Below, in pieces: positions 8,623 to 43,081 of a stretch of 64,000 bases of DNA. How positions within the stretch are numbered: the stretch's first letter is position 1; each line of letters starts with the position of its first letter. Made by a program: the position numbers and the translations under genes. Origin of the DNA: Methanococcus voltae PS (GTDB lineage Archaea > AGJL01 > Methanococci > Methanococcales > Methanococcaceae); contig NZ_JANUCQ010000003.1 in NCBI RefSeq assembly GCF_024807035.1, forward strand, positions 62,001 through 126,000, in the 5' to 3' direction. The notes beneath the pieces were generated by a model. The model was given only the letters and a program-made list of their open reading frames with translations, made no database searches and was not told where the DNA came from.

Positions 8623-11030
<2,408 letters not shown>

Positions 11031-30289: not shown

Positions 30290-31213
30290 TTACTTTAATT
30301 CATAAATTATACTATTTTTTAACCTAGAACGTGTCTTTTTTATACATGCGTTACCCAATACTGTAGTAGTCTTATTTTTACTTGTATCATTTGAACTTGT
30401 AATATCTAATAAAACTTCACCGTAATTTTTAGTAGTTGTGTTACAGTTTACAGGACATTGTGAATACATATCGACATTTTCAAATGAACAGGATAACTTA
30501 CCACAAACATGTAATATAGGATTATAATCTGCTAATCCTTCCATGGTTGATTTATATTGCTCAATTATTCGTTTATTGGATATTCCACTATATTTTTTAA
30601 AAATTCTAGGACCTACAATATCTAATGTACCTACAGAATCAGAATAAGATATAATTTTAGCACCACTTTTTGCCCCTTCGACCATGTAATTTATAATACC
30701 TTCTTCAATATAATTTAATAACTTCTGGGCATTTTCAGGATTTTTTCTAAGTTCTTTGTAGAATATTTTGGGGTCCATTAATGCAGAAACTACCGTAAAA
30801 GGTCCGCAAATATTTAATATAACATACTCCCCAGAATTAACCAATTCCTGAGTTGCAGTTATTACATTATTTATTCTACCTTTTTTCATGCTCAAATCTA
30901 TATCCAAAATAGTTTCAAAATCCGCCAATTCTTCATTTGAATTTATTAAATACCTATCAACCCTTGGACCGTATTTATTATCTCCCAATTTAATAATTGC
31001 ACCAAATGCTTCAGCTTCTATTGTATTACAGAAAGGAAGTCTACAAAACATGTCTTTTTTAACTTCCTTCATAGCTTTTGATAAATTAATCATGTCTTGG
31101 AGGTTGTTGTGTGCTTCAGGGAATTTAAAATCACTAGCTATCGAATCAGGTATTGTTTCGAAATTATCACTAATACATTTAAAATCCGAATTTTCTTTAC
31201 TGTTAGAATCCAT
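30290..31213 (-). CDS. Shortened UroD/MtbA-family methyltransferase-like protein
   Basis: A 307-residue member of the UroD/MtbA superfamily, whose corrinoid-linked members transfer methyl groups between corrinoid proteins and thiols. FPEAHNNLQDM, EAEAFGAIIKLG and NICGPFTV match the methyltransferase at 36170, and the zinc-type HVCG motif is present. It lacks the N-terminal CPGGMM region and the distal Cys motif (SPACG) of that paralogue, and has extra Cys residues in its divergent C-terminus. It may be a degenerate copy or have a new role. GGTGAAATT precedes the start. It is the last gene of the methyltransferase locus. Confidence 0.7.
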   Translation of the reverse strand: MDSNSKENSDFKCISDNFETIPDSIASDFKFPEAHNNLQDMINLSKAMKEVKKDMFCRLPFCNTIEAEAFGAIIKLGDNKYGPRVDRYLINSNEELADFETILDIDLSMKKGRINNVITATQELVNSGEYVILNICGPFTVVSALMDPKIFYKELRKNPENAQKLLNYIEEGIINYMVEGAKSGAKIISYSDSVGTLDIVGPRIFKKYSGISNKRIIEQYKSTMEGLADYNPILHVCGKLSCSFENVDMYSQCPVNCNTTTKNYGEVLLDITSSNDTSKNKTTTVLGNACIKKTRSRLKNSIIYELK

Positions 31214-31445
31214 AATTTCACCAACTTAAACAATAACGCCATTAATTGTTTAAATTCCAATGTTATTCCTATATATCTAAAATTAAGTGAAAATAAATAA
31301 AATAAAAATAAAATTTTGGGATTTAATTATGATTTAGTTGAATTAATAACATTTTTAACTGATTTGAAATAATTTGGGGTTGCTATAATCTTAATTAATT
31401 TTCAATCAATTGAATCATATTATTTTTTTCAACAAATATCATTAA

Positions 31446-32777
31446 TTATAAACCCTTTTCTTTTGAGAAATACACTGAAACAGTTGCTATTGCCATTCCA
31501 ATAGCTAAAGTTAACCATGCTGTTTGGTAACCTGCTATTGTAAAGCCACCTGCTGCTGTTATACCATAACTTGCAATTATAGCACCACAAACTTGTTGTA
31601 ATACTGCACCACCCACGAATGGGAAGAAGTTTAAGATAGCTGTTGAAGTACCTGCAATTGATATAGGGAATAATGATTTCACCTGACCATATGATACAAC
31701 GAAGAAACCGCCGAAGAAACCAAATAAGAAGTATAACACTTGGTAAATCAACGGATTATCTACGCCAGTCAAAGCCCATATTGCAAACCATAATGCAGTG
31801 TAGAGTACGGTACCAATTATTAAAGTCTTTTTTCTTGATTTTAAAACTTTATCTGCTAAGTAACCTGCAACTGGACATCCAAAGATAAGACCTAAACCTA
31901 TAAACATTAAAAGTCCTGCATAGGTTAATTTATCCCAGCCCAATACATCTTGGAAGTATGGACCTGCCCATAAACCTTGGTAAGCCATTAAAGAGCCGTA
32001 GAAGAAGAAGAACCAAATACCTAATGCCCAGAATGATTTTTCTTTAACTACCATTTTCATAGCATCTTTAATGCCAATATTATTCTCAGCTTTAGGTGCT
32101 TCAGCCTTTTGAGATTCTACAGCGATTTTTGAAACCTCTTTACCACTTTCTAAAGCTTCAACTTCTGCTATTGTAGGGAATCCTTTGTCTGAAGGTCTAT
32201 CCTTAATGAAAATATAGGATAAAACTGCCAATAATACTGAAAATCCACCTAATCCCAAGAATACGGTTTGCCAACCTAATGAAGTGTTTAACATAGCTAA
32301 AGGAGCCGCTGCTGATAAAGCACCAATGTTACCTACGGCTAACATTACACCACTTTGTGTTGCAAACTCGTTTTTTCTGAACCAGGTTGCAAGTACTTTC
32401 ATAATTGGAATATATACTGCAGCTACACCGATACCAATTAATAATCTACCTAAGATTACCATATTGAAATCTGTTGCTATACCAGTTAATAAAGCACCAA
32501 CAGCAGCTACTAAGGTGAATACTGAAACAACTTTTTTAGGTCCGTACTTATCTGCTAAAACACCAGAAGGTATCTGCATTAAAGCATAAGCATAGAAGTA
32601 TACAGAACCCAATAAAGCTATTTGTCCAGCGCCTACGCCGAAAGTGCTCATTAAATCTCCAGCCATAACTGCGAGAGATGTTCTATGGAAGTAAACAAAG
32701 AAATAAACTATTGCAAGAACTGCAAACATTACCCATCTGTATTTCATCATTTTAGATATATTTTCTTTCGATAACAT
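31446..32777 (-). CDS. MFS transporter in the methyltransferase locus
   Basis: A 443-residue major facilitator protein with about twelve membrane helices. The N-terminal half has FVYFHRTSLAVMAGDL, an early motif like that of anion or organic acid carriers, and GVLADKYGPKK between helices 2 and 3. The charged loop in the middle (about 205-240, SGKEVSKIAVESQKAEAPKAEN) lies between the two halves. The substrate is unknown. It is on the same strand as the methyltransferase cluster and may import its substrate, which is inference. GAGGTACTATT precedes the start. Confidence 0.8.
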   Translation of the reverse strand: MLSKENISKMMKYRWVMFAVLAIVYFFVYFHRTSLAVMAGDLMSTFGVGAGQIALLGSVYFYAYALMQIPSGVLADKYGPKKVVSVFTLVAAVGALLTGIATDFNMVILGRLLIGIGVAAVYIPIMKVLATWFRKNEFATQSGVMLAVGNIGALSAAAPLAMLNTSLGWQTVFLGLGGFSVLLAVLSYIFIKDRPSDKGFPTIAEVEALESGKEVSKIAVESQKAEAPKAENNIGIKDAMKMVVKEKSFWALGIWFFFFYGSLMAYQGLWAGPYFQDVLGWDKLTYAGLLMFIGLGLIFGCPVAGYLADKVLKSRKKTLIIGTVLYTALWFAIWALTGVDNPLIYQVLYFLFGFFGGFFVVSYGQVKSLFPISIAGTSTAILNFFPFVGGAVLQQVCGAIIASYGITAAGGFTIAGYQTAWLTLAIGMAIATVSVYFSKEKGL

Positions 32778-32977
32778 AATAGTACCTCAAAATTGAATTA
32801 AGCCATTATTAATCAATTTTCGGTTCAATAAGTGTTATCACCAAGTCTCTCGTAATTCTATTATATCTAACTAATATATATAATATGGGCATTAGATTTA
32901 TTAATAACTAAAAATTAATTAAATTAAAAAATAAACTAAAATAAACTAAAATAATTAAAAAATAAAAATGATATATA

Positions 32978-33922
32978 TTAAAATTTAAATAAATCTAGGA
33001 TTTCTTTTTCTTTTAAATCTTTACCAATTATGCAAATTTCGGATGATTTTTTAGTATTTAAATTTTCAAGTTCGTAGTTATTTCCAACGTAGTTAAATTC
33101 TGCATAACGTCTAACTTCAGGATTTTTATCATCCATATAATTAATATATCCCTTTCCTCGCATAATTAATCCATAATTATTAGATTTTAAAGATTCTACA
33201 GCATTTTTAAAAGCTTCAACATTTAAAGGATTGTTAAAATTGACTAAAACACTTGAAACGCCTTGCATAGCTTTGTGAACATCTCCAATGTAAAGTTCTT
33301 TTGAAATTGTTTCTTTATTATCATCAATGATTTTTAAAAATTTATCAGAATCTATACTATCCCAATTTTCAGAAATAAGTATTGCATTATCATTTAGTTC
33401 TTTTAAGGAATTTACAATATTATCTAATTCATTTTGGGTTATATATTGAGATTTACTGATAATTAACTTGTCTGCATTCCTTATTTGGTCATTAAAAAAA
33501 TCACCGAACAATTCAACTTGGTCTAAGTAATTTTCACCATCAACCACAGTAATTACAGAATTTAACTTACAATTGTCCTGAATCTCCTTGTTATTCTCAT
33601 CAAGTACGATACCAAGTATTTGACTTAAAAGAGCCATTCCAGTAGGCTCCACAATAATTCTAGTAGGTTTCATATATTCTACGATATCTTTAAGAGATTT
33701 TAAAAAGTTTAATTTTAAAGTACAACAAATACATCCTTTTTCAAGTTCTACAACGTCTAAACCTTTATCTCTTAATATATCCCCATCGATACCAATATCC
33801 CCAAATTCATTTTCAATGATTACAATTCGTTCATTTTCTGTAGCTTTAATTAATTTTTGAATGAATGTAGTTTTTCCACAACCTAAATACCCTGATATTA
33901 CGTCTATTTTTATTTTGTTCAT
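32978..33922 (-). CDS. CobW/P47K-family GTPase
   Basis: A 314-residue protein of the CobW/COG0523 GTPase family, which often acts as a metal chaperone or insertase. The P-loop GYLGCGKTT lies at residues 11-19, and the metal-binding CICC motif (C64, C66, C67) follows in ELEKGCICCTLKLNF. The GTPase TKxD-like segment is less clear: the frame shows LIISKSQYI. The C-terminal domain has a RGKGYIN segment. Its place beside zinc-dependent methyltransferases and a corrinoid activator suggests a role in maturing one of them. GGGGTAAATT precedes the start. Confidence 0.8.
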   Translation of the reverse strand: MNKIKIDVISGYLGCGKTTFIQKLIKATENERIVIIENEFGDIGIDGDILRDKGLDVVELEKGCICCTLKLNFLKSLKDIVEYMKPTRIIVEPTGMALLSQILGIVLDENNKEIQDNCKLNSVITVVDGENYLDQVELFGDFFNDQIRNADKLIISKSQYITQNELDNIVNSLKELNDNAILISENWDSIDSDKFLKIIDDNKETISKELYIGDVHKAMQGVSSVLVNFNNPLNVEAFKNAVESLKSNNYGLIMRGKGYINYMDDKNPEVRRYAEFNYVGNNYELENLNTKKSSEICIIGKDLKEKEILDLFKF

Positions 33923-34029
33923 AATTTACCCCTTAAGTTCAAATTAATTAAATAATTCATATTTTAATTGATTTTTATTTTATGTTATTTTATTTGGGCT
34001 ACTATAGATTATTAAGATTATTAAGATTA

Positions 34030-36090
34030 TTATTTGTTAAAATTTAAAGCTTTGATAAATAAATCTTCATAACCGTCTTTAGTAGATAATTCACAGTATT
34101 TTATCTTATTTGCTACATTTTCCATATTTTTTCTAGAATCTTTAGATAATAAACACATTAAAGCACCTATTTTGGAAGAATTACCAATATATCGAACTTT
34201 ATCTTTTAATTCTTTAGGTATTATACCACTTCCGGCTAAACTATCTTCACTAAGGTGTTTTCCAAATTGTCCTGCAACTATAACTTCATCCAAATCTTGC
34301 ATTGAAACGTTTAATTCATTCAGTAAGGCTTCAAAACCCGATACTATTGCTGCTTTAGCTAATTGAACTTGTCTAATATCATTTTGAGATATATAGATGT
34401 CTTTATCGTTTGAATGCGGATTAGCATAAATTAATATAGCTCTTTTGCCCTCTTTTTCAATGATTCTATCCCTATAGAGTTCATTCATAGTATTTGGCGA
34501 TTTTATACGTCCAGTCTTATTCACCAATCCAACTCTTACAATTTCAGAAATAATATCTAAAATACCACTGCCACAAATTCCCGAAGGTTCACAATCTCCA
34601 ATTACCTTTATATCGGCATTTAAATCTTTTAAATCTTTTTTGTTGGTAGATTCATTTTTTTCAGTTTCTTTGAATTTAAAACCTTCTATCGCACCGTTTG
34701 CTGCCCTCATACCACAACTAATATTCATACCTTCTAACGCAGGACCGGCTGCGCAAGAGCATGCGGATAATTCACCATGATTTGATAAAACTATTTCCCC
34801 ATTGGTACCAATATCTATAAACAATACCAATTTATCGGTTTTTTCTAAATTGGATACTTCTACCCCAGCAACTATGTCTGAACCAATATATCCAGAAACG
34901 CCAGGTAAGCAGTACATCTTACCAAATTTTGAAATATCGATATTTAAATCAGTTGCCTTTAAATACTTTGAATTTAAGAATATCGGCAAATAAGGAGATT
35001 TACCAATTGTTTTTGCATCAATATTTATTAAAAAGTGTAACATCGTAGTATTTGCAGATATTACAACTTCGTAAATAGATTCTTTAGATATTCCTTGTTT
35101 TTGAGCTAAATCAGTTATCATTTCATTAATACAAGAGATTATACTATTATGTAATAATTTTAAACCTTTTTCATTCTTCTTTGTAAAATCTATTCTTGAA
35201 AGTACATCTAAACCATATTGTTTTTGAGGATTGATTCTACTTTCGGAACAAAGCTCTTTTTCATTTTTTATATCTATTAAAGAAGACACTACAGTAGTTG
35301 TACCTATATCTATAGCCACCCCATAGCAATTAGAATCATGTGTTGAATTTGAATCCAAATCTGTTGAATTATTTTCGTTTAAATTTTCTTTTTCCTGAAT
35401 TTCTAGTCCTAATAAGTTATTTTCTGAAAAAATTGCATTAATAACTATTTCGGATTCTTGATTTAAATTTTTAGATAGTAATTCAGATAATTGTTGTATT
35501 GAATGTAGGATATTTAAATTATTTAAATTTAAATTTAATTTAGTAATATCTAAACAATATTCATCATTTTTAGCGTATCTTTTGTTAACACCATCATGCA
35601 ATAATTTCAAAAAGATTTCTTCAAAAGTTTTAATATTTTTATCCTTTAAATTTTCAATATCCATCATTTTTAGCGTATCTTTATTTAGGGGGCAAGATAT
35701 CTTCATAATGTTTGGATTGTACTTAAATTCTGGAATATATCCATCTGCTAAAATTTTATGGGAGCTACTCTCTTCATTATTGGATAAATTAGCTTCACTA
35801 AGTAAATCCACGGTTAAATTATCATATACATAAGTTAAACAACTTAAACGAATTCCAGAGCTTAATTCATCCTCTGAAAGGTATCTTAATTCTTCAGGTG
35901 AAGGTTTTGAAACGTTGGTTTCATTTTGATTTAAAATTTTAACTTTACATTTTCCACAAGTTCCAGCACCGCCACATGGACTTTCTACCTTTAAACTATT
36001 ATTTTGGAGAATATTAAGTAGTAATTCACCATTGTCAAATTTTAACATATTATTTTCAATGTTTGAATTAATTACTGTAATTATTGCCAT
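34030..36090 (-). CDS. RACo-type corrinoid activator with 2Fe-2S domain
   Basis: A 686-residue protein of the RACo family (reductive activator of corrinoid-dependent methyltransferases; DUF4445/ASKHA). The N-terminal ferredoxin domain has the 2Fe-2S Cys set C39, C45, C48 and C84. The ASKHA core begins at about residue 255 (GVAIDIGTTTVVSS) and has a second motif at about 425 (IDIGTNGEIVLSNHGELSACSCAAGPALEG). RACo reduces inactive Co(II) corrinoid to Co(I) at the cost of ATP. Here it would reactivate the corrinoid protein encoded upstream. GAGGCTTAAA precedes the start. Confidence 0.85.
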   Translation of the reverse strand: MAIITVINSNIENNMLKFDNGELLLNILQNNSLKVESPCGGAGTCGKCKVKILNQNETNVSKPSPEELRYLSEDELSSGIRLSCLTYVYDNLTVDLLSEANLSNNEESSSHKILADGYIPEFKYNPNIMKISCPLNKDTLKMMDIENLKDKNIKTFEEIFLKLLHDGVNKRYAKNDEYCLDITKLNLNLNNLNILHSIQQLSELLSKNLNQESEIVINAIFSENNLLGLEIQEKENLNENNSTDLDSNSTHDSNCYGVAIDIGTTTVVSSLIDIKNEKELCSESRINPQKQYGLDVLSRIDFTKKNEKGLKLLHNSIISCINEMITDLAQKQGISKESIYEVVISANTTMLHFLINIDAKTIGKSPYLPIFLNSKYLKATDLNIDISKFGKMYCLPGVSGYIGSDIVAGVEVSNLEKTDKLVLFIDIGTNGEIVLSNHGELSACSCAAGPALEGMNISCGMRAANGAIEGFKFKETEKNESTNKKDLKDLNADIKVIGDCEPSGICGSGILDIISEIVRVGLVNKTGRIKSPNTMNELYRDRIIEKEGKRAILIYANPHSNDKDIYISQNDIRQVQLAKAAIVSGFEALLNELNVSMQDLDEVIVAGQFGKHLSEDSLAGSGIIPKELKDKVRYIGNSSKIGALMCLLSKDSRKNMENVANKIKYCELSTKDGYEDLFIKALNFNK

Positions 36091-36169
36091 TTTAAGCCTC
36101 TAAATGTAGTTATATAAAAATTTAGATTTTTAGATTTTTAGATTTTTATTTTTTATTATTGTAATATTT

Positions 36170-37240
36170 TTAGTTCTTTAAATTTGAATTAGAGGAATTT
36201 TTTGCTGTATTTACCATTGCTTGAATATTCTCTAATTTTGTCCTAACGCCAATACCGCATGCAGGAGATAAAATATCTACTCCAAACTTCATACATGCGT
36301 TGCTCATTCTACCTATAGATTCAGGATTACCGTTTTCTAAGGCAAATGTACTTACATTACCCATGATTGCTTTACCCGGCACATTCTCAACAACTTGCTT
36401 TACATCAGTTATTGAATCAAAACTGATTGCATCACTTTCTAAAGTTTTTATTTCGCCGTATATACTTTTTAATCTACCACAAATGTGTATTATTGTACCT
36501 GTTTGAGCATAATCTTGTGTTTCTTCTATTAATTTATTTAAATAAGGCATAGCATATTCTTTGAACATTTTAGGGCCTAATATTTCACCGGTACCACTCG
36601 GGTCAGAAATTGCTAAAACGTCAGCACCTGCTTTTAATTGAGCTTTACCAAATTTTATTAAGTTATCAGTAACAAAATCCATATATTCATGTACCTTTTC
36701 TGGTTTAGACCTAAGTTCTTTATAGTATGTAATTGGTTCCATTAATGATGAAGCCACACTTACAGGGCCAGTTAAATTTGCAACCACGGGTACATCTTTA
36801 TCTTTATTCTTCAAAATTTTTATAGAGTCTAATATTACTTGTTCCCGAGTTATATTTCCATTTTCATCTTTTTCATCTTTTTTAGTTGATAAAATTTCAG
36901 TTAAATTCATATATTCAGTTACTGAATTTATTGGATATTCTGTAACTCTTGGTTCAGTTATTTCAGTGCCCATTTTAACTTTAGCACCCATAGCTTCTGC
37001 TTCTACAGTCATACAAAAAGGAACGCCAACATTTTCAAATCCGCCATTTTTATATAATCTATATGTTAAATCCGCCATTTTTTGAGGGTCGTTATGAGCT
37101 TCTGGCCAATATATGTTTGTAATATCCATGATATCTTTGACTATCATATTCATCATACCGCCCGGACATATGCAGGGAGGTCTATCTACGGTTTCTTTCT
37201 CTTTTAAAACTACTTTTAATCGTTCTTTAGGGGATATCAC
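36170..37240 (-). CDS. MtbA-like methylcorrinoid:thiol methyltransferase
   Basis: A protein of about 356 residues in the UroD/MtbA family. The N-terminus SPKERLKVVLKEKETVDRPP is close to the known coenzyme M methyltransferase start, so the GTG at 37240, preceded by GGTGATTAT, is the likely start and not an ATG further upstream. PGGMMNM, EAEAMGAKVKMG, HICG (about residue 252) and SPACGIG support a zinc methyltransferase. It probably moves a methyl group from the methylated corrinoid protein to a thiol such as coenzyme M, which would return methyl groups to methanogenesis. It is co-oriented with the sdm genes. Confidence 0.8.
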   Translation of the reverse strand: MISPKERLKVVLKEKETVDRPPCICPGGMMNMIVKDIMDITNIYWPEAHNDPQKMADLTYRLYKNGGFENVGVPFCMTVEAEAMGAKVKMGTEITEPRVTEYPINSVTEYMNLTEILSTKKDEKDENGNITREQVILDSIKILKNKDKDVPVVANLTGPVSVASSLMEPITYYKELRSKPEKVHEYMDFVTDNLIKFGKAQLKAGADVLAISDPSGTGEILGPKMFKEYAMPYLNKLIEETQDYAQTGTIIHICGRLKSIYGEIKTLESDAISFDSITDVKQVVENVPGKAIMGNVSTFALENGNPESIGRMSNACMKFGVDILSPACGIGVRTKLENIQAMVNTAKNSSNSNLKN

Positions 37241-37469
37241 ATAATCACCGTAACATGTTGATATAGGGTATATTAATATGTACAATATGGTATGTTGTAA
37301 TTGTAATTTTAATCGTAATTTAGAATACTTCTAAGTAATTAAGTAAATTTCAAATAAATTCTTTAAAATACATTAAAAATAATCTAATTTTAATAAAAAA
37401 TATTAAAATTAAAAATAATAAATTAGATATAATTATAAAATTCCATTTTGCAATTAATTTAATTGCAAA

Positions 37470-38555
37470 TTACTCTTCATATTTGTTAATGCTTAACAAA
37501 TATTCTAATTTTTCATCAGTTACTGGCCATCCTATTTCTCTAGCAGTATCCATCATAACGTCTATATTTTCAATAGGTGTTTCTACAGGTAAGCCACATC
37601 CGGACATAATTCCATAGCCTTTTTTAGCTTTGTAACCTTGTTGAACGGATTTTATAACAGCTTTTCTTACTTCTTCTTTAGTTCCCGCATACATTACTGC
37701 TGAAGGGTCAACATTACCTGTTACTACCATTCTGTCCCCTATTGTATTAACACAGTCTTCCATATCTGCTATATCATCAATACTAAATGCGTTAATACCC
37801 ATATCTGCTATATCAGTCCATATTGCTTTAGTTTGACCACAAATGTGGATTGAAACACCATTGAGTTTTGATTTTACAAAGTCTACATATTTTGATAAAT
37901 ATGGAGCACAGTATTCTCTGAAGTGTTTAGGGCTTATAACAGTACATGAAGCCATAGGTTCTGCAATGCTTATACCCACACCAGTTTTTATAGCTGCGTC
38001 GGTGAATCTGATACAGTTTTCTAGGGATATTTCACATAATTTGTGAACTGATTCAGGGTCTTTTATCATTAATTTAGTCATTTTCTCAACGCCGATGATA
38101 AAACAAGCATTTGTAAATGGACCTACAATGAGTGCCGTACATGGAACTTCGTCTTTTAATTCTTCGTGAACATATTCCATTGCTTTTAAGTGAATAGGTA
38201 ATCTTGCATCTTTGTAAGGGTCAATTAAAGGTATTTTATCAATTTCTGAGATATCATTTATTGCAGGTTCTAATAAATCAACTGTGTCATCGTCAGGCAT
38301 TTTCATTTTAGCGCCCATAGCTTCTGACAATAAAAATAAATCGGTGAATACTTTAGCTCCATCTGCACCAAATCTTCTGTAGGTTGCTATAACAGCGTCC
38401 GCTAAAGCTCTTGGGTCTTTATTAAAATCTGAAATTTTACAACCTGAAATTCTTGCAATACCGTTTGAAAGGTTAGGGTTGCAAGGTAACCTATCAACTG
38501 CTTCGCCGTTTGCTTTTGCTTTAGCTCTTTGAAGAGGAGTCATCTTATCTTTCAT
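37470..38555 (-). CDS. sdmC: UroD-type methyltransferase, SdmC-like
   Basis: A protein of about 361 residues of the UroD methyltransferase family, closely related over its whole length to the next gene upstream. It has SIHICGQTK and SGCGLP zinc-type motifs. The region MTPLQRAKAKANGEAVDRLPCNPN matches its neighbour. The ATG at 38555 is chosen since GAGGCAAACT sits before it. In M. voltae two methyltransferases, SdmB and SdmC, are reported beside a corrinoid protein for use of dimethylselenide. The sdmC label follows that order and is tentative. Confidence 0.75.
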   Translation of the reverse strand: MKDKMTPLQRAKAKANGEAVDRLPCNPNLSNGIARISGCKISDFNKDPRALADAVIATYRRFGADGAKVFTDLFLLSEAMGAKMKMPDDDTVDLLEPAINDISEIDKIPLIDPYKDARLPIHLKAMEYVHEELKDEVPCTALIVGPFTNACFIIGVEKMTKLMIKDPESVHKLCEISLENCIRFTDAAIKTGVGISIAEPMASCTVISPKHFREYCAPYLSKYVDFVKSKLNGVSIHICGQTKAIWTDIADMGINAFSIDDIADMEDCVNTIGDRMVVTGNVDPSAVMYAGTKEEVRKAVIKSVQQGYKAKKGYGIMSGCGLPVETPIENIDVMMDTAREIGWPVTDEKLEYLLSINKYEE

Positions 38556-38853
38556 AGTTTGCCTCATGCTACTAATAAATAATTTTGTGTACGTTTTTTA
38601 ATTGGATTTAAAAATTAAATTAAATTAAATTAAACCAAAACTAAAGAATTATTTAAATAATCGATATTTATTAAAATATGTAATATATGGATTTTAAATT
38701 GCTATTGAATTTATATTTACTGATATTAACGTTATAATTAAAGATTGAGAGACTTAACTAATAACATAATATATTGAATCGATAATTTATTTGATAATTA
38801 TTTTAATTTTTAGTTTTTAGCTTTTAGTTTTTGATTTAAAATTATTTTTTAAA

Positions 38854-39942
38854 TTACTCGTATTTTGTAATAGCCATTAATTTTTCTAATTTTTCATCAG
38901 TTACTGGCCATCCTACTTCTCTTACTGTATCCATCATAGTTTGTATGTTTTCAATAGGAACTTCCACAGGTAAACTACATCCAGACATTATAATAAAGCC
39001 TTTTTTAGCCATGTAACCTTCTTTAATGCTTTTTAAAGTTGCTTTCCTAACTTGCTCTTTAGTTCCTGCATACATTATCGCGGAAGGGTCAACGTTACCT
39101 GCAACAGCCATTTTATCGCCCACTCTGTCAGCACAAAGTTTTAAATCGGCAATATCATCAATACTTAATACATTAACACCCATATCTACTAAATCGTCCC
39201 ATATTGGGTCAGTTTTACCGCAAATGTGTAATACAATATTTCCCACACCTTTTGATTTCATATAATCAATTAAACGTTTAAGGTATGGTGCAGAATAATT
39301 TCTGAAGTGTTTAGGACTTATTACAGTACAAGAAGATAAAGGTTCTGAGATTGTAACTCCTACCCCTTGCTCTAAAGCCGCATCAGTTAATTTCATACAG
39401 CTTTTTAATGAAATTTCACATAATTTGTGAACTGATTCAGGGTCTTTTAATAACATTTTGGTCATTTTTTCGATACCTATTAAAAAGAAGGCATTTGTAA
39501 ATGGACCTACAACTGAAGCAGTTACTGAAACTTCGTCGCCAATTTCGTCCTTAACTTTTTTCATAGCCCTTAAATGTATGGGTATTCTACCATCTTTGTA
39601 CGGGTCGATTACTTTTAAATCGTCTATTTTTGAAATATCGTCAATTGCAGGTTCTTCCAAATCTGCAGTGTTATCTTCGGGTTTATTAACTTTTGCACCC
39701 ATTGCCTCAGCTATTAAGAACAAATCGGTAAAAACTCTCGTACCATCCATTCCAAACATCTTGTAAGATTTTATAACAGCGTCCGCTAAAGCATCAGAAT
39801 TGCTATTAAATTCTGAAATCTTATAGCCTGCAATTCTTGCAATACCATTTCCAATATTTGGATTACATGGTAATCTATCGATTGGTTCACCGTTTGATTT
39901 TGCCCTGGCTCTTTGAGCCGGGGTCATTGTATCGCTAATCAT
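38854..39942 (-). CDS. sdmB: UroD-type methyltransferase, SdmB-like
   Basis: A 362-residue UroD-family methyltransferase with VLHICGKTD and SGCSLP zinc-type motifs. It shares most of its blocks with the SdmC-like protein (TKMLLKDPESVHKLCEISL, SDPSAIMYAGTKE-like region), so the pair is a tandem duplication. It follows the corrinoid protein gene after about 137 bases. GTGATATAG precedes the start. Its methyl donor is not determined by sequence; dimethylselenide is suggested by the likeness to the reported M. voltae cluster. Confidence 0.75.
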   Translation of the reverse strand: MISDTMTPAQRARAKSNGEPIDRLPCNPNIGNGIARIAGYKISEFNSNSDALADAVIKSYKMFGMDGTRVFTDLFLIAEAMGAKVNKPEDNTADLEEPAIDDISKIDDLKVIDPYKDGRIPIHLRAMKKVKDEIGDEVSVTASVVGPFTNAFFLIGIEKMTKMLLKDPESVHKLCEISLKSCMKLTDAALEQGVGVTISEPLSSCTVISPKHFRNYSAPYLKRLIDYMKSKGVGNIVLHICGKTDPIWDDLVDMGVNVLSIDDIADLKLCADRVGDKMAVAGNVDPSAIMYAGTKEQVRKATLKSIKEGYMAKKGFIIMSGCSLPVEVPIENIQTMMDTVREVGWPVTDEKLEKLMAITKYE

Positions 39943-40079
39943 CTATATCACAATTTAATTAGATTTAATTAGATTTAATTACTTAATTATTAAATTAAAT
40001 GCCAATGCTAAATATTAAATATTAAATATCAATTTTAAATTTAAAAATTAATTTAAAAGTAAATTCAAGAATTAATTCA

Positions 40080-40751
40080 TTAATTCAATTTTGAATCTTT
40101 TAATTTTGAAACTAATTCTTTTGCAATTCTTGCAGATTTTGAAGCTTCAGGAGCATAACCATCTGCGCCAATTTTATCAGCAAAGCTTTGTGAGATAGGA
40201 CCGCCACCAACCATTACGATGGTATTGTCTTTCATATTTTGTTCTTTTAAGATATCGATAACAACTTTCATGTTATCCATTGTAGTTGTCATAAGTGTTG
40301 ATAATCCAATTACATCCGCATTTACTTCCTTAGCTTTCTCTACGAATTCAATAGGTGGTACATCTCTACCTAAATCATAAACTTCGAAACCTTGTGTTTC
40401 TAACATTATTTTAAACAAGTTTTTTCCAATGTCGTGAGTATCCCCTTCTACGACACCAACTACTGCTTTCATTTTTTCGTCATTTTCTGAATATTGTAAA
40501 TGAGGTTTTAAAATATCCAATCCTTTGTACATTGCATCGGAACATACTAATAATTCAGGTATGAAGTATTCTTCTTCTTCGTACATAACACCTGCTCTGT
40601 TCATTCCATCTGCCAATCCTTTTGAAATTCCTTCGAATGCGTTGTATCCATTTTTAATATATGTATCAGATAATTCTTCTGTTAAATCTTCATCCATATC
40701 TAAAACAGCATCTGAAAGTTGCTTTATCATATTTTCTTGTGACTCTGTCAT
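40080..40751 (-). CDS. sdmA: Corrinoid protein, SdmA-like
   Basis: A corrinoid-binding protein of about 223 residues, with an N-terminal helical cap domain and a C-terminal B12-binding domain. The cobalt-ligating signature DTHDIG (H106) is clear, followed by the GLSTLMTTT and MVGGGPIS segments that contact the corrinoid tail. The ATG at 40751 is preferred since GAGGCCAAAT precedes it, the same arrangement as in the SdmC-like gene. It would carry the methyl group between the methyltransferases and be reactivated by the RACo-type protein. The label sdmA is by analogy. Confidence 0.85.
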   Translation of the reverse strand: MTESQENMIKQLSDAVLDMDEDLTEELSDTYIKNGYNAFEGISKGLADGMNRAGVMYEEEEYFIPELLVCSDAMYKGLDILKPHLQYSENDEKMKAVVGVVEGDTHDIGKNLFKIMLETQGFEVYDLGRDVPPIEFVEKAKEVNADVIGLSTLMTTTMDNMKVVIDILKEQNMKDNTIVMVGGGPISQSFADKIGADGYAPEASKSARIAKELVSKLKDSKLN

Positions 40752-41091
40752 ATTTGGCCTCATATATTAAGATTTTTAATAGGGTAATCATATTTTTTAA
40801 TGTTTAGATTATAGCACCCCATACTATGGTAATCAATATATTTATAATTTTCATTAGAAAACATAATATCGAATAAGGATGTAAAGAAATCTATTAAGAA
40901 CTACTTTAATTAAAATAAATTTATTTTTAATATATTTTTTAAAATAGTAATATCTGAGAGTTTAAATCATTGAAAAAGGTACATAATAATTATACTAAAT
41001 ATAATAATAATTTAAAAATAAATATGTTAAAAATATTGTAATATAACAAATATTTGTAATTACAATATTGACAAGCCACAAATTAATAAAA
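40752..41091. promoter_or_regulatory. Upstream region of the corrinoid protein gene with nested inverted repeat
   Basis: This region of about 340 bases contains a nested inverted repeat at 41032-41069: outer arms AATATTGTAAT/ATTACAATATT (11 bases each) enclose ACAAAT/ATTTGT. It ends 23 bases beyond the Cys-rich gene stop and about 280 bases before the corrinoid gene. It could be a terminator or processing hairpin for the Cys-rich gene, or a dyad operator for the operon. The segment nearest the start has GATTACC/GGTAATC-like words (GGGTAATCAT, TATGGTAATCA). Confidence 0.45.
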
Positions 41092-41241
41092 TTAATTATC
41101 TTTATTATTGCATAATTTTGCCATACAGTATACCGGAGTACCGCCTTCTAAATGTGCATTTATACAGTCTTTACAGTTACCATAGTGAGGACACTGTACG
41201 TTAGGGCAATTACAATTTTCATTTTTATTACAAGATTCCAT
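41092..41241 (-). CDS. Small Cys-rich protein, DUF6485-like
   Basis: A 49-residue protein with eight Cys: CNKNENCNCPNVQC, then a CKDC pair, then C and C near the end. The pattern NCPNxxCPxxGxCxxC resembles the small Cys-rich family often called DUF6485, common beside methyltransferase and iron-sulfur genes. It is too small to be an enzyme; metal or cluster binding is likely but unproven. GGTGATATT precedes the ATG. It is the first gene at the upstream end of the methyltransferase locus and is divergent from a winged-helix regulator gene. Confidence 0.75.
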   Translation of the reverse strand: MESCNKNENCNCPNVQCPHYGNCKDCINAHLEGGTPVYCMAKLCNNKDN

Positions 41242-41480
41242 AATATCACCAAATATTTTTTTTATAGTTTAATAGTATCTTAGTAGTTTTCAAATTTTCT
41301 TTATTTGAGATATAATATACTTGAATTATATATTCGATGAAGTAAACATATACTTAATTGTCAGTGAAATAGTCAAGATTAAAATTTGGTATATTTAAAT
41401 AACCTATTAATTATTAAATATCATGAAACTTTAAAAATAAATAAAAATACTATAACTGATATCAAAATCTCAGGTAGAAT

Positions 41481-42200
41481 ATGAAAAAAGAACGGGAATG
41501 TAATATAGATTATGAATCAATAAAAGATATTAAAAAAGATATAGTAAAACTATATGGGAAATTAAATGAACTAATAGAAAATGTGGAGTTAAATTCACTT
41601 GAAGAAGATGAGGAATATGAAAAAGATAAAGATAGCGGTGATGAATTATATAAAAATATACAGAATGAAGAAAAGTTGAAAAAAAAGTACATGGCTGAGT
41701 TTAAAAAATTTTTAAAGAAAAACAAATTTTTAGATTTTGAAGGAGATAGCCCTGATGAATTTGTAGAACATTATAAAAATAGAAGTAGTTTAAGCAAAAA
41801 AATACCATTATTTAACAAAGAGTGTAAATATGAAGATAGTGACGCTTTTGAAAAACAGCACGCCCTTATAAAATCATTAGGCGTTAAAGATACAGAAAAA
41901 GAAATCAAAGAATTTGCAAATATTGCAGAAAAAGAAATCTACGAAATATTAGAACCAATTTCAAATATTCACAGGTTAAAAATCGCAAAATCACTATTAT
42001 ATGCAAATCATAGTTTTTCAGAGCTTTCAAACATTACAGGATTAAAATCTGGCAATTTACTATTTCATTTACAAAAACTCCAAAATTCGGGCATTATATT
42101 TCAAAAATTCGAAAAAGGAAATTATTATTTATCAAAAAAAGGAGAATATATTATAAAATCACTTTTTAAAATTGTAAATGTGTCCAAAATGTTAGAATAA
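41481..42200 (+). CDS. ArsR-like winged-helix regulator
   Basis: A 239-residue protein with a long acidic and Lys-rich N-terminal part (about 1-110) and a C-terminal winged-helix domain (about 150-239). The helix-turn-helix is in SNIHRLKIAKSLLYANHSFSEL and ITGLKSGNLLFHLQKLQNSG, followed by a wing with KGNYYLSKKGEYI. It is divergent from the Cys-rich gene and the methyltransferase locus, so it may control them. The N-terminal domain might sense a ligand or contact another protein. The ATG lacks a strong binding site, with AGGTAGAAT before it. Confidence 0.7.
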   Translation: MKKERECNIDYESIKDIKKDIVKLYGKLNELIENVELNSLEEDEEYEKDKDSGDELYKNIQNEEKLKKKYMAEFKKFLKKNKFLDFEGDSPDEFVEHYKNRSSLSKKIPLFNKECKYEDSDAFEKQHALIKSLGVKDTEKEIKEFANIAEKEIYEILEPISNIHRLKIAKSLLYANHSFSELSNITGLKSGNLLFHLQKLQNSGIIFQKFEKGNYYLSKKGEYIIKSLFKIVNVSKMLE

Positions 42201-42460: not shown

Positions 42461-43081
42461 TCACCTCTTTTTTAATCCGATCACTCTTGATTGGATGTGT
42501 TTAGGGAAGTAATCCAAAGGATTTTCGCCTCTTGACCTCAATACTGCCCTTATTTCGGTTTCATAATCCGATTTTAAGAGTTCTTCACTCTCTTTTTCTG
42601 AAATTTCGAAATAACTATTAACAAGATTTCTTAAAGTTTTATGTCCGAAACCCATAAGTGGAGTTATATACTGAATATCCTTTCTCATCTCTAAACTTTG
42701 AACTTCTGCGTGGCTTAGCTTAGGGACTCTGTCGTCTCTTCTCGTACCATCTGCAATAACTTCAAAATCATCAGAAATAATATTCAATGTTTCTTTGTGA
42801 ATGTATTGTATTCCATTTGATGGGAATCCATCATTTAAGATAATATCAACAGATTTTTCAAGAATTTCGCTATCCAAGCTTATAACTTTATGAGAATAAT
42901 TTAATATTTTGGCAGTATTTTGAGCATGAATATAGGAATCCAAAACTCCAAAATTTATGGTTACTAATTCTATATCGTATCCTAGATTATTTAGAATTAT
43001 AGCCGATAATGAACTATCTTTACCACCACTAAACAATACATGAGCCTTATTATTCAAATTATTTGTATTAATTGCATCCAT
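42461..43081 (-). CDS. PP-loop ATPase of unknown substrate
   Basis: A 206-residue protein with the PP-loop SGGKDSS at residues 18-24 (after AHVLF), typical of the adenine nucleotide alpha hydrolase superfamily. Such enzymes adenylate a carbonyl or thiolate substrate. [11 protein letters not shown] in the middle and [20 protein letters not shown] near the end are distinctive. It is placed between L39e and the PDCD5-like gene, a translation-linked unit. A role in RNA modification is plausible but unproven. GTGAGACC precedes the start. Confidence 0.75.

Follow-up and report, generated by a model that had tools for sequence, protein, structure and literature searches.

The sdm locus of Methanococcus voltae as a probable type 1 mlp gene cluster for selenium salvage from methylated selenides

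Introduction

Type 1 mlp gene clusters (MGCs) were defined in a 2023 preprint as encoding Mlp1, Mlp2, Mlp3, a corrinoid protein and a RACE activase, with the criterion that at least one Mlp2 and at least one Mlp3 occur together, Mlp1 being frequent but not obligatory (PMC10418091). Selenide methyl transfer was shown for a clostridial Mlp2, and the preprint names Methanococcus and notes that Mlp1 and Mlp3 of Methanococcus voltae were overlooked in 2004 (PMC10418091). The sdm system of M. voltae is cited as required for the use of dimethylselenide (DMSe) in PMC10418091 and PMC11097638, and the former cites the loss of DMSe use upon sdmC deletion; induction by selenium starvation is reported for this species as well. 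Here we analyzed a 64,000-nucleotide stretch of a Methanococcus genome, referred to as the window, in which a corrinoid methyltransferase locus resembling sdmABC lies between positions 30290 and 42200.

Two other systems are close to this locus. In Methanococcus maripaludis, Funkner et al. 2024 report that selenium depletion raises MMJJ_01610 by 6.3 log2 and MMJJ_01650-70 by 5.6 to 7.8 log2 (PMC11097638). According to the same study, deletion of MMJJ_01610 left the use of DMSe, dimethyldiselenide (DMDSe), selenomethionine, Se-methylselenocysteine, selenate and methylseleninate unchanged. With selenocyanate, the starvation reporter of the mutant was fivefold higher, and with selenocystine there was a mild effect that other mutants showed too. 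In Methanosarcina acetivorans, MtpCAP, which we compared by gene content, combines a corrinoid protein, a coenzyme M methyltransferase and an MFS transporter in one locus; its substrate is methylmercaptopropionate, and neither RACo nor CobW is reported in that locus (PMC7374477).

Identity and composition of the locus

The window genome (1.78 Mb in 12 contigs) is that of a Methanococcus, and its RadA differs at one residue from PDB 1t4g, the RadA of M. voltae. It has four UroD-family genes, all of which lie within the cluster described below. Because the host is M. voltae or nearly so and no second locus of this type occurs in the genome, the locus is very likely the sdm locus of this species, rather than merely an sdm-like one. 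The organism clearly uses selenium: the PSTK gene from which a preliminary description of this DNA had drawn the same conclusion lies at 8923-9738 and matches the solved L-seryl-tRNA(Sec) kinase 3a4l with E=2e-66, and the genome encodes a FruA-type hydrogenase whose gene contains an in-frame TGA, beside a selenium-free homologue.

Every gene named in the preliminary description of the 30290-42200 region was found in its place, and the assigned families were borne out by Pfam and NCBIfam models. All cluster genes are on the reverse strand. The corrinoid protein SdmA, the methyl carrier (40080-40763), contains the Pfam B12-binding and B12-binding_2 domains with a GDTHDIG cobalamin motif; its nearest solved relative is 1y80 (E=3e-54), and it is 79-97% identical to its counterparts in five other Methanococcus genomes. 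UroD1 (38854-39942), an Mlp2 and the probable SdmB, is a predicted methylselenide demethylase that is 57-60% identical to Clostridium Mlp2 and 32-34% identical to proteins of other Methanococcales genera. UroD2 (37470-38567), a tandem paralogue, is a second Mlp2 and the probable SdmC, and in the tree both proteins cluster with clostridial Mlp2 (support 100/99). Thus, as in the sdmABC trio described in PMC10418091 and PMC11097638 for the same species, a corrinoid protein gene is followed by two close Mlp2 genes.

The MtbA-like Mlp3 (36170-37240), probably a methyl-SdmA:coenzyme M methyltransferase, is the only one of the four UroD-family proteins that passes the methylcobalamin:coenzyme M methyltransferase models NF004889 (465 bits, cut-off 244) and TIGR01463 (243 bits, cut-off 235.4); UroD1, UroD2 and Mlp1 fall below the curated cut-offs of both. 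Its coding sequence likely begins with the GTG at 37240 rather than with the TTG at 37285, and it is 59% identical to Mlp3 of clostridial clusters. Farther downstream are a RACo-type ATP-dependent reductive activase (34030-36090; Pfam RACo_C_ter, Raco_middle and Fer2, the last an N-terminal [2Fe-2S] domain; E=6e-95 to solved 3zyy), a CobW/COG0523 GTPase (32978-33922; E=2e-21 to YjiA, 1nij), an MFS transporter of the organic-anion type (31446-32777; Pfam MFS_1; nearest solved relative the D-galactonate transporter 6e9n) and a short protein of the UroD/MtaA fold, Mlp1 (30290-31213). The GTPase, a candidate metal chaperone with a GCICC motif, has cysteine codons in its CxCC motif, with neither an in-frame TGA nor a selenocysteine UxxC, and fails the CobW-related selenoprotein model NF041053 (88.7 bits, cut-off 180). 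No Rfam elements were found in the window.

Thus, the window has Mlp2 and Mlp3 together, with a corrinoid protein, a RACo/RACE-type activase and Mlp1, all in common with type 1 MGCs (PMC10418091). The Methanococcus form differs in adding an MFS gene that occurs only in the cluster, CobW in four genomes, and the tandem Mlp2 in the voltae-type genomes. The trio, as reported for sdmABC, omits the downstream Mlp3, RACo, CobW, MFS and Mlp1 genes. The preliminary description had proposed that this trio is only the core of the system, and this holds, in that the trio is embedded in a larger, conserved set of genes that also encodes a reductive activase and a third full-length methyltransferase. This extension is already published as a type 1 MGC, so that the locus core is no discovery in itself.

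The H-x-C...C (His-Cys-Cys) zinc site is retained in UroD1, UroD2 and Mlp3, in the last case including both H-x-C and the third cysteine upon alignment with MtaA 4ay7, and it is not retained in Mlp1. As this soft zinc site of Mlp2 and Mlp3 is that of S-methyltransferases, the cluster might mainly serve methylated sulfur compounds, such as dimethylsulfide, methanethiol or methylthio-acids, with selenium as a side activity. The existence of type 1 MGCs without selenium genes (PMC10418091) and the pairing of an MFS transporter with a methylthio-acid in the Methanosarcina MtpCAP system (PMC7374477) point the same way. However, the induction of the M. maripaludis orthologs when selenium is depleted argues for selenium, as does the M. 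voltae phenotype on DMSe, and the ClMlp2 reaction with sulfide is 4.3-fold slower than that with selenide (PMC10418091). We therefore regard a primary role in sulfur metabolism as very unlikely.

Conservation and distribution

We surveyed 36 Methanococcales genomes, and a phylum-level search gave the same 36. The cluster recurs in six Methanococcus genomes: the window genome, G019, G020, G015, G016 and G017. In the first three, the voltae-type genomes, the order is SdmA-UroD1-UroD2-Mlp3-RACo-CobW-MFS-Mlp1 on one strand, and UroD2 is restricted to them. G015, G016 and G017 have a single Mlp2, and their MFS and Mlp1 genes, separated by gaps of 53-57 nt, make up a two-gene unit of opposite orientation. 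Each of the eight cluster genes is under purifying selection (dN/dS 0.02-0.16), which, together with the recurrence in six genomes, indicates that the cluster is not a chance assembly. As all six genomes come from one genus, counts of co-occurrence represent few independent events.

The accessory genes could nevertheless be unrelated to sdm and merely adjoin it: CobW is missing from two of the cluster-bearing genomes, MFS-Mlp1 is on the other strand in three, and Mlp1 evolves faster than Mlp2. The distribution argues against this. Mlp1 and MFS accompany the cluster in all six genomes, and MFS, weak partial transporter matches aside, is found in none of the other 30 and always inside the cluster. 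CobW, where present (four of the six), also lies in the cluster, with only weak, short GTPase matches elsewhere in the order, and Mlp1 orthologs occur in clostridial type 1 clusters. A chance association of MFS, Mlp1 and CobW with sdm is thus unlikely. The comparison sorts the neighbours, in that MFS, Mlp1, Mlp3 and RACo belong to the system and CobW does so in part.

The gene order in G015 is MFS-Mlp1-CobW-RACo-Mlp3-Mlp2-SdmA, followed by three small open reading frames, fwdB-hdrA-vhc and frc, and this fits MMJJ_01610-01800 of M. maripaludis JJ. The MMJJ_01610-01670 genes are orthologous to those of the window except for UroD2, with MMJJ_01620, MMJJ_01630 and MMJJ_01640 corresponding to Mlp1, CobW and RACo, and MMJJ_01610 and MMJJ_01650-70 are selenium-repressed (PMC11097638). 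The M. maripaludis locus differs in having one Mlp2, in the opposite orientation of MFS-Mlp1 and in adjoining selenium-free hydrogenase genes. In this comparison, MMJJ_01650, treated as sdmC-like in that report, maps to the coenzyme M methyltransferase-like Mlp3, whereas the third gene of the M. voltae trio is the second Mlp2; the two should not be equated.

The Mlp1, SdmA, Mlp2, Mlp3 and RACo orthologs are also grouped in clostridial clusters. Identity to Clostridium proteins is 57-68% for Methanococcus Mlp2, SdmA and Mlp3, compared with ~32-34% (Mlp2) and ~46-49% (SdmA) identity to proteins of other Methanococcales genera. This pattern fits a putative horizontal exchange with Clostridia, as was proposed for such clusters in general terms (PMC10418091).

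A further genome of the genus, G018, has FruA with an in-frame TGA and FrcA, and lacks the sdm cluster, the MFS gene and a CobW of the cluster type. The system is therefore dispensable for such a selenium-using Methanococcus. A different corrinoid/UroD/RACo cluster is present in three further Methanococcales genomes (L047 8002-13228, L048 6917-12142 and L049 6799-11941); it encodes a 267-271-amino-acid UroD without an internal segment and proteins ~30-49% identical to the Methanococcus set.

Proposed pathway

We consider it highly probable that the window contains the M. voltae sdm locus in the form of a type 1 MGC that salvages selenium from methylated selenides under scarcity, by the following steps and with the present sorting of accessory and neighbouring genes. 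DMSe or methylselenol would bind the zinc of Mlp2 (UroD1/UroD2, corresponding to SdmB/SdmC), and Mlp2 would transfer the methyl group to the Co(I) of SdmA, a step backed experimentally elsewhere, by the clostridial Mlp2. A thiol, most likely coenzyme M, would then receive the methyl group of SdmA through Mlp3, and the group could leave as methane. RACo would spend ATP to re-reduce SdmA whose cobalt had been accidentally oxidised, and the released selenide would enter selenocysteine synthesis through selenophosphate. CobW and the MFS-Mlp1 unit are assigned accessory roles: the former is a plausible metal chaperone, predicted to supply the zinc methyltransferases, and the latter would act on another methylated or anionic selenium compound, distinct from DMSe.

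Several points weigh against this reconstruction. The very likely equivalence with sdm is deduced from the species and the single locus. Coenzyme M is a presumed acceptor for Mlp3, and the preprint favours sulfide or methionine recycling in bacteria (PMC10418091). Among the mapped cluster genes, the induction figures of PMC11097638 cover MMJJ_01610 and MMJJ_01650-70, and the identification of G015 with M. maripaludis JJ is itself deduced from gene order and position. Finally, the two cluster-bearing genomes without CobW reveal that this GTPase is not essential.

The short UroD protein

The preliminary description had taken the fourth UroD/MtbA paralogue for a truncated gene. Instead, it represents a conserved family of short proteins under purifying selection; the window member has 307 amino acids, and its counterparts elsewhere in Methanococcus have 291-315. 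It is orthologous to a 289-290-amino-acid protein of bacterial clusters, with 39-40% identity to the clostridial and ~26% to the Sporomusa members, and all of these short proteins form one clade (support 100/99), in which the Sporomusa branch is long. A pseudogene or broken copy was ruled out by the conservation, by dN/dS values of 0.05-0.16 and by the clostridial orthologs. From the position in the cluster and the separate clade, the protein appears to correspond to Mlp1 as known from type 1 MGCs.

Mlp1 retains H-x-C and ends without the last barrel segment, which carries the third cysteine ligand. All members have a conserved cysteine in a G-N/H-x-C motif (GNxC) and a short strand-like C-terminal segment, and this cysteine may perhaps be a replacement zinc ligand; some Mlp1 proteins are known to depart from the His-Cys-Cys site (PMC10418091). 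The AlphaFold2 model (mean pLDDT 80.7, with low confidence in the C-terminal segment) matched MtaA (4ay8/4ay7) best among solved structures, with E ~1e-11.

Promoters and transcription units

We compared the upstream regions of the genes in the six cluster-bearing genomes. The sdmA promoter region (40764-40860, reverse strand) contains a BRE/TATA-like block, ATGAAAAYTATAAA, at 40841-40854, and the MFS promoter region (32778-32910, reverse strand) contains AATYTAATRCC (32888-32898) followed by ATATATAT. Each is kept in all six genomes, the two blocks differ, and neither occurs upstream of the other gene, indicating at least two transcription units. The earlier picture of a co-transcribed set on a single strand is accordingly not supported for MFS, which has its own promoter and lies on the opposite strand in three species. 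Between UroD2 and Mlp3 lies an AU-rich hairpin (37385-37411, reverse strand) that is kept in the three voltae-type genomes and possibly, if weakly, marks the 3' end of the sdmABC trio. We rejected it as a terminator since, though kept in three genomes, it is energetically unremarkable (z -0.75 to -2.6) and the maripaludis-type genomes have none. Likewise, an operator common to sdmA, MFS and the HrsM-controlled region between frc and vhc was rejected, as the conserved blocks differ; short matches of the sdmA and MFS regions to the frc/vhc region are few and inconsistent between genomes, giving no convincing common operator.

These results bear on whether all of the genes form one co-regulated pathway, with MFS as importer of the methylated selenide, CobW as metal supplier and the winged-helix gene near sdmA as regulator of the whole set. 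The clustering on the same strand in the window, the confinement of MFS and CobW to cluster-bearing genomes and the selenium repression of the apparent MFS ortholog (PMC11097638) speak for such an arrangement. However, the MFS promoter is unlike that of sdmA and the gene has the reverse orientation in three genomes, the winged-helix gene is missing at four of the six loci and forms a separate pair with a miniprotein elsewhere, and DMSe and DMDSe use was unaffected by the deletion of MMJJ_01610, the apparent ortholog, in that report. The last result also leaves the earlier proposal that MFS imports DMSe unsupported. We hold the single co-regulated pathway to be highly improbable.

Beyond the salvage of methylated selenides by the sdm cluster, one might tentatively picture MFS and Mlp1 as a second salvage branch with its own promoter, in which MFS would import an anionic organoselenium compound (e.g., a methylseleno-carboxylate), Mlp1 would demethylate it onto SdmA, and CobW would load zinc onto the methyltransferases during starvation. 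An anionic substrate is suggested by the precedent of MtpCAP and methylmercaptopropionate; as a whole, we consider this extension doubtful. The leads that emerge are the true cargo of a selenium-repressed transporter and a COG0523 GTPase that possibly serves corrinoid methyltransferases.

Neighbouring genes

Two genes upstream of sdmA were assessed by comparing the loci. A 49-amino-acid Cys-rich miniprotein (41092-41241, reverse strand), which matched no Pfam family, and a divergent ArsR-like winged-helix regulator (41481-42200, forward strand) occur at the sdm locus in the window genome and G019, and are missing there in G020, G015, G016 and G017. In G017, their homologues lie side by side and divergently ~270 kb from the sdm cluster (L095:6067-7063; the Cys-rich protein has 46-49 amino acids). 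Since four of the six loci are without the pair and the G017 pair is far from the cluster, the two genes are a separate divergent module, mere neighbours of sdm. They had been counted as a member and as the control gene of the system, respectively; both are excluded here, and the winged-helix protein is probably not the regulator of the locus, the known selenium regulator being the LysR-type HrsM.

In G015, a second locus near 1.548 Mb (L046:8366-9013) has a corrinoid-protein gene broken by an A-run frameshift, either a true lesion or a sequencing error, upstream of a second UroD-type methyltransferase gene, probably MMJJ_16960. In the window, a DUF7411 ATP-pyrophosphatase-like gene (42461-43081; QueC-related) adjoins the locus and is conserved in the voltae-type genomes, with no link to the cluster seen.

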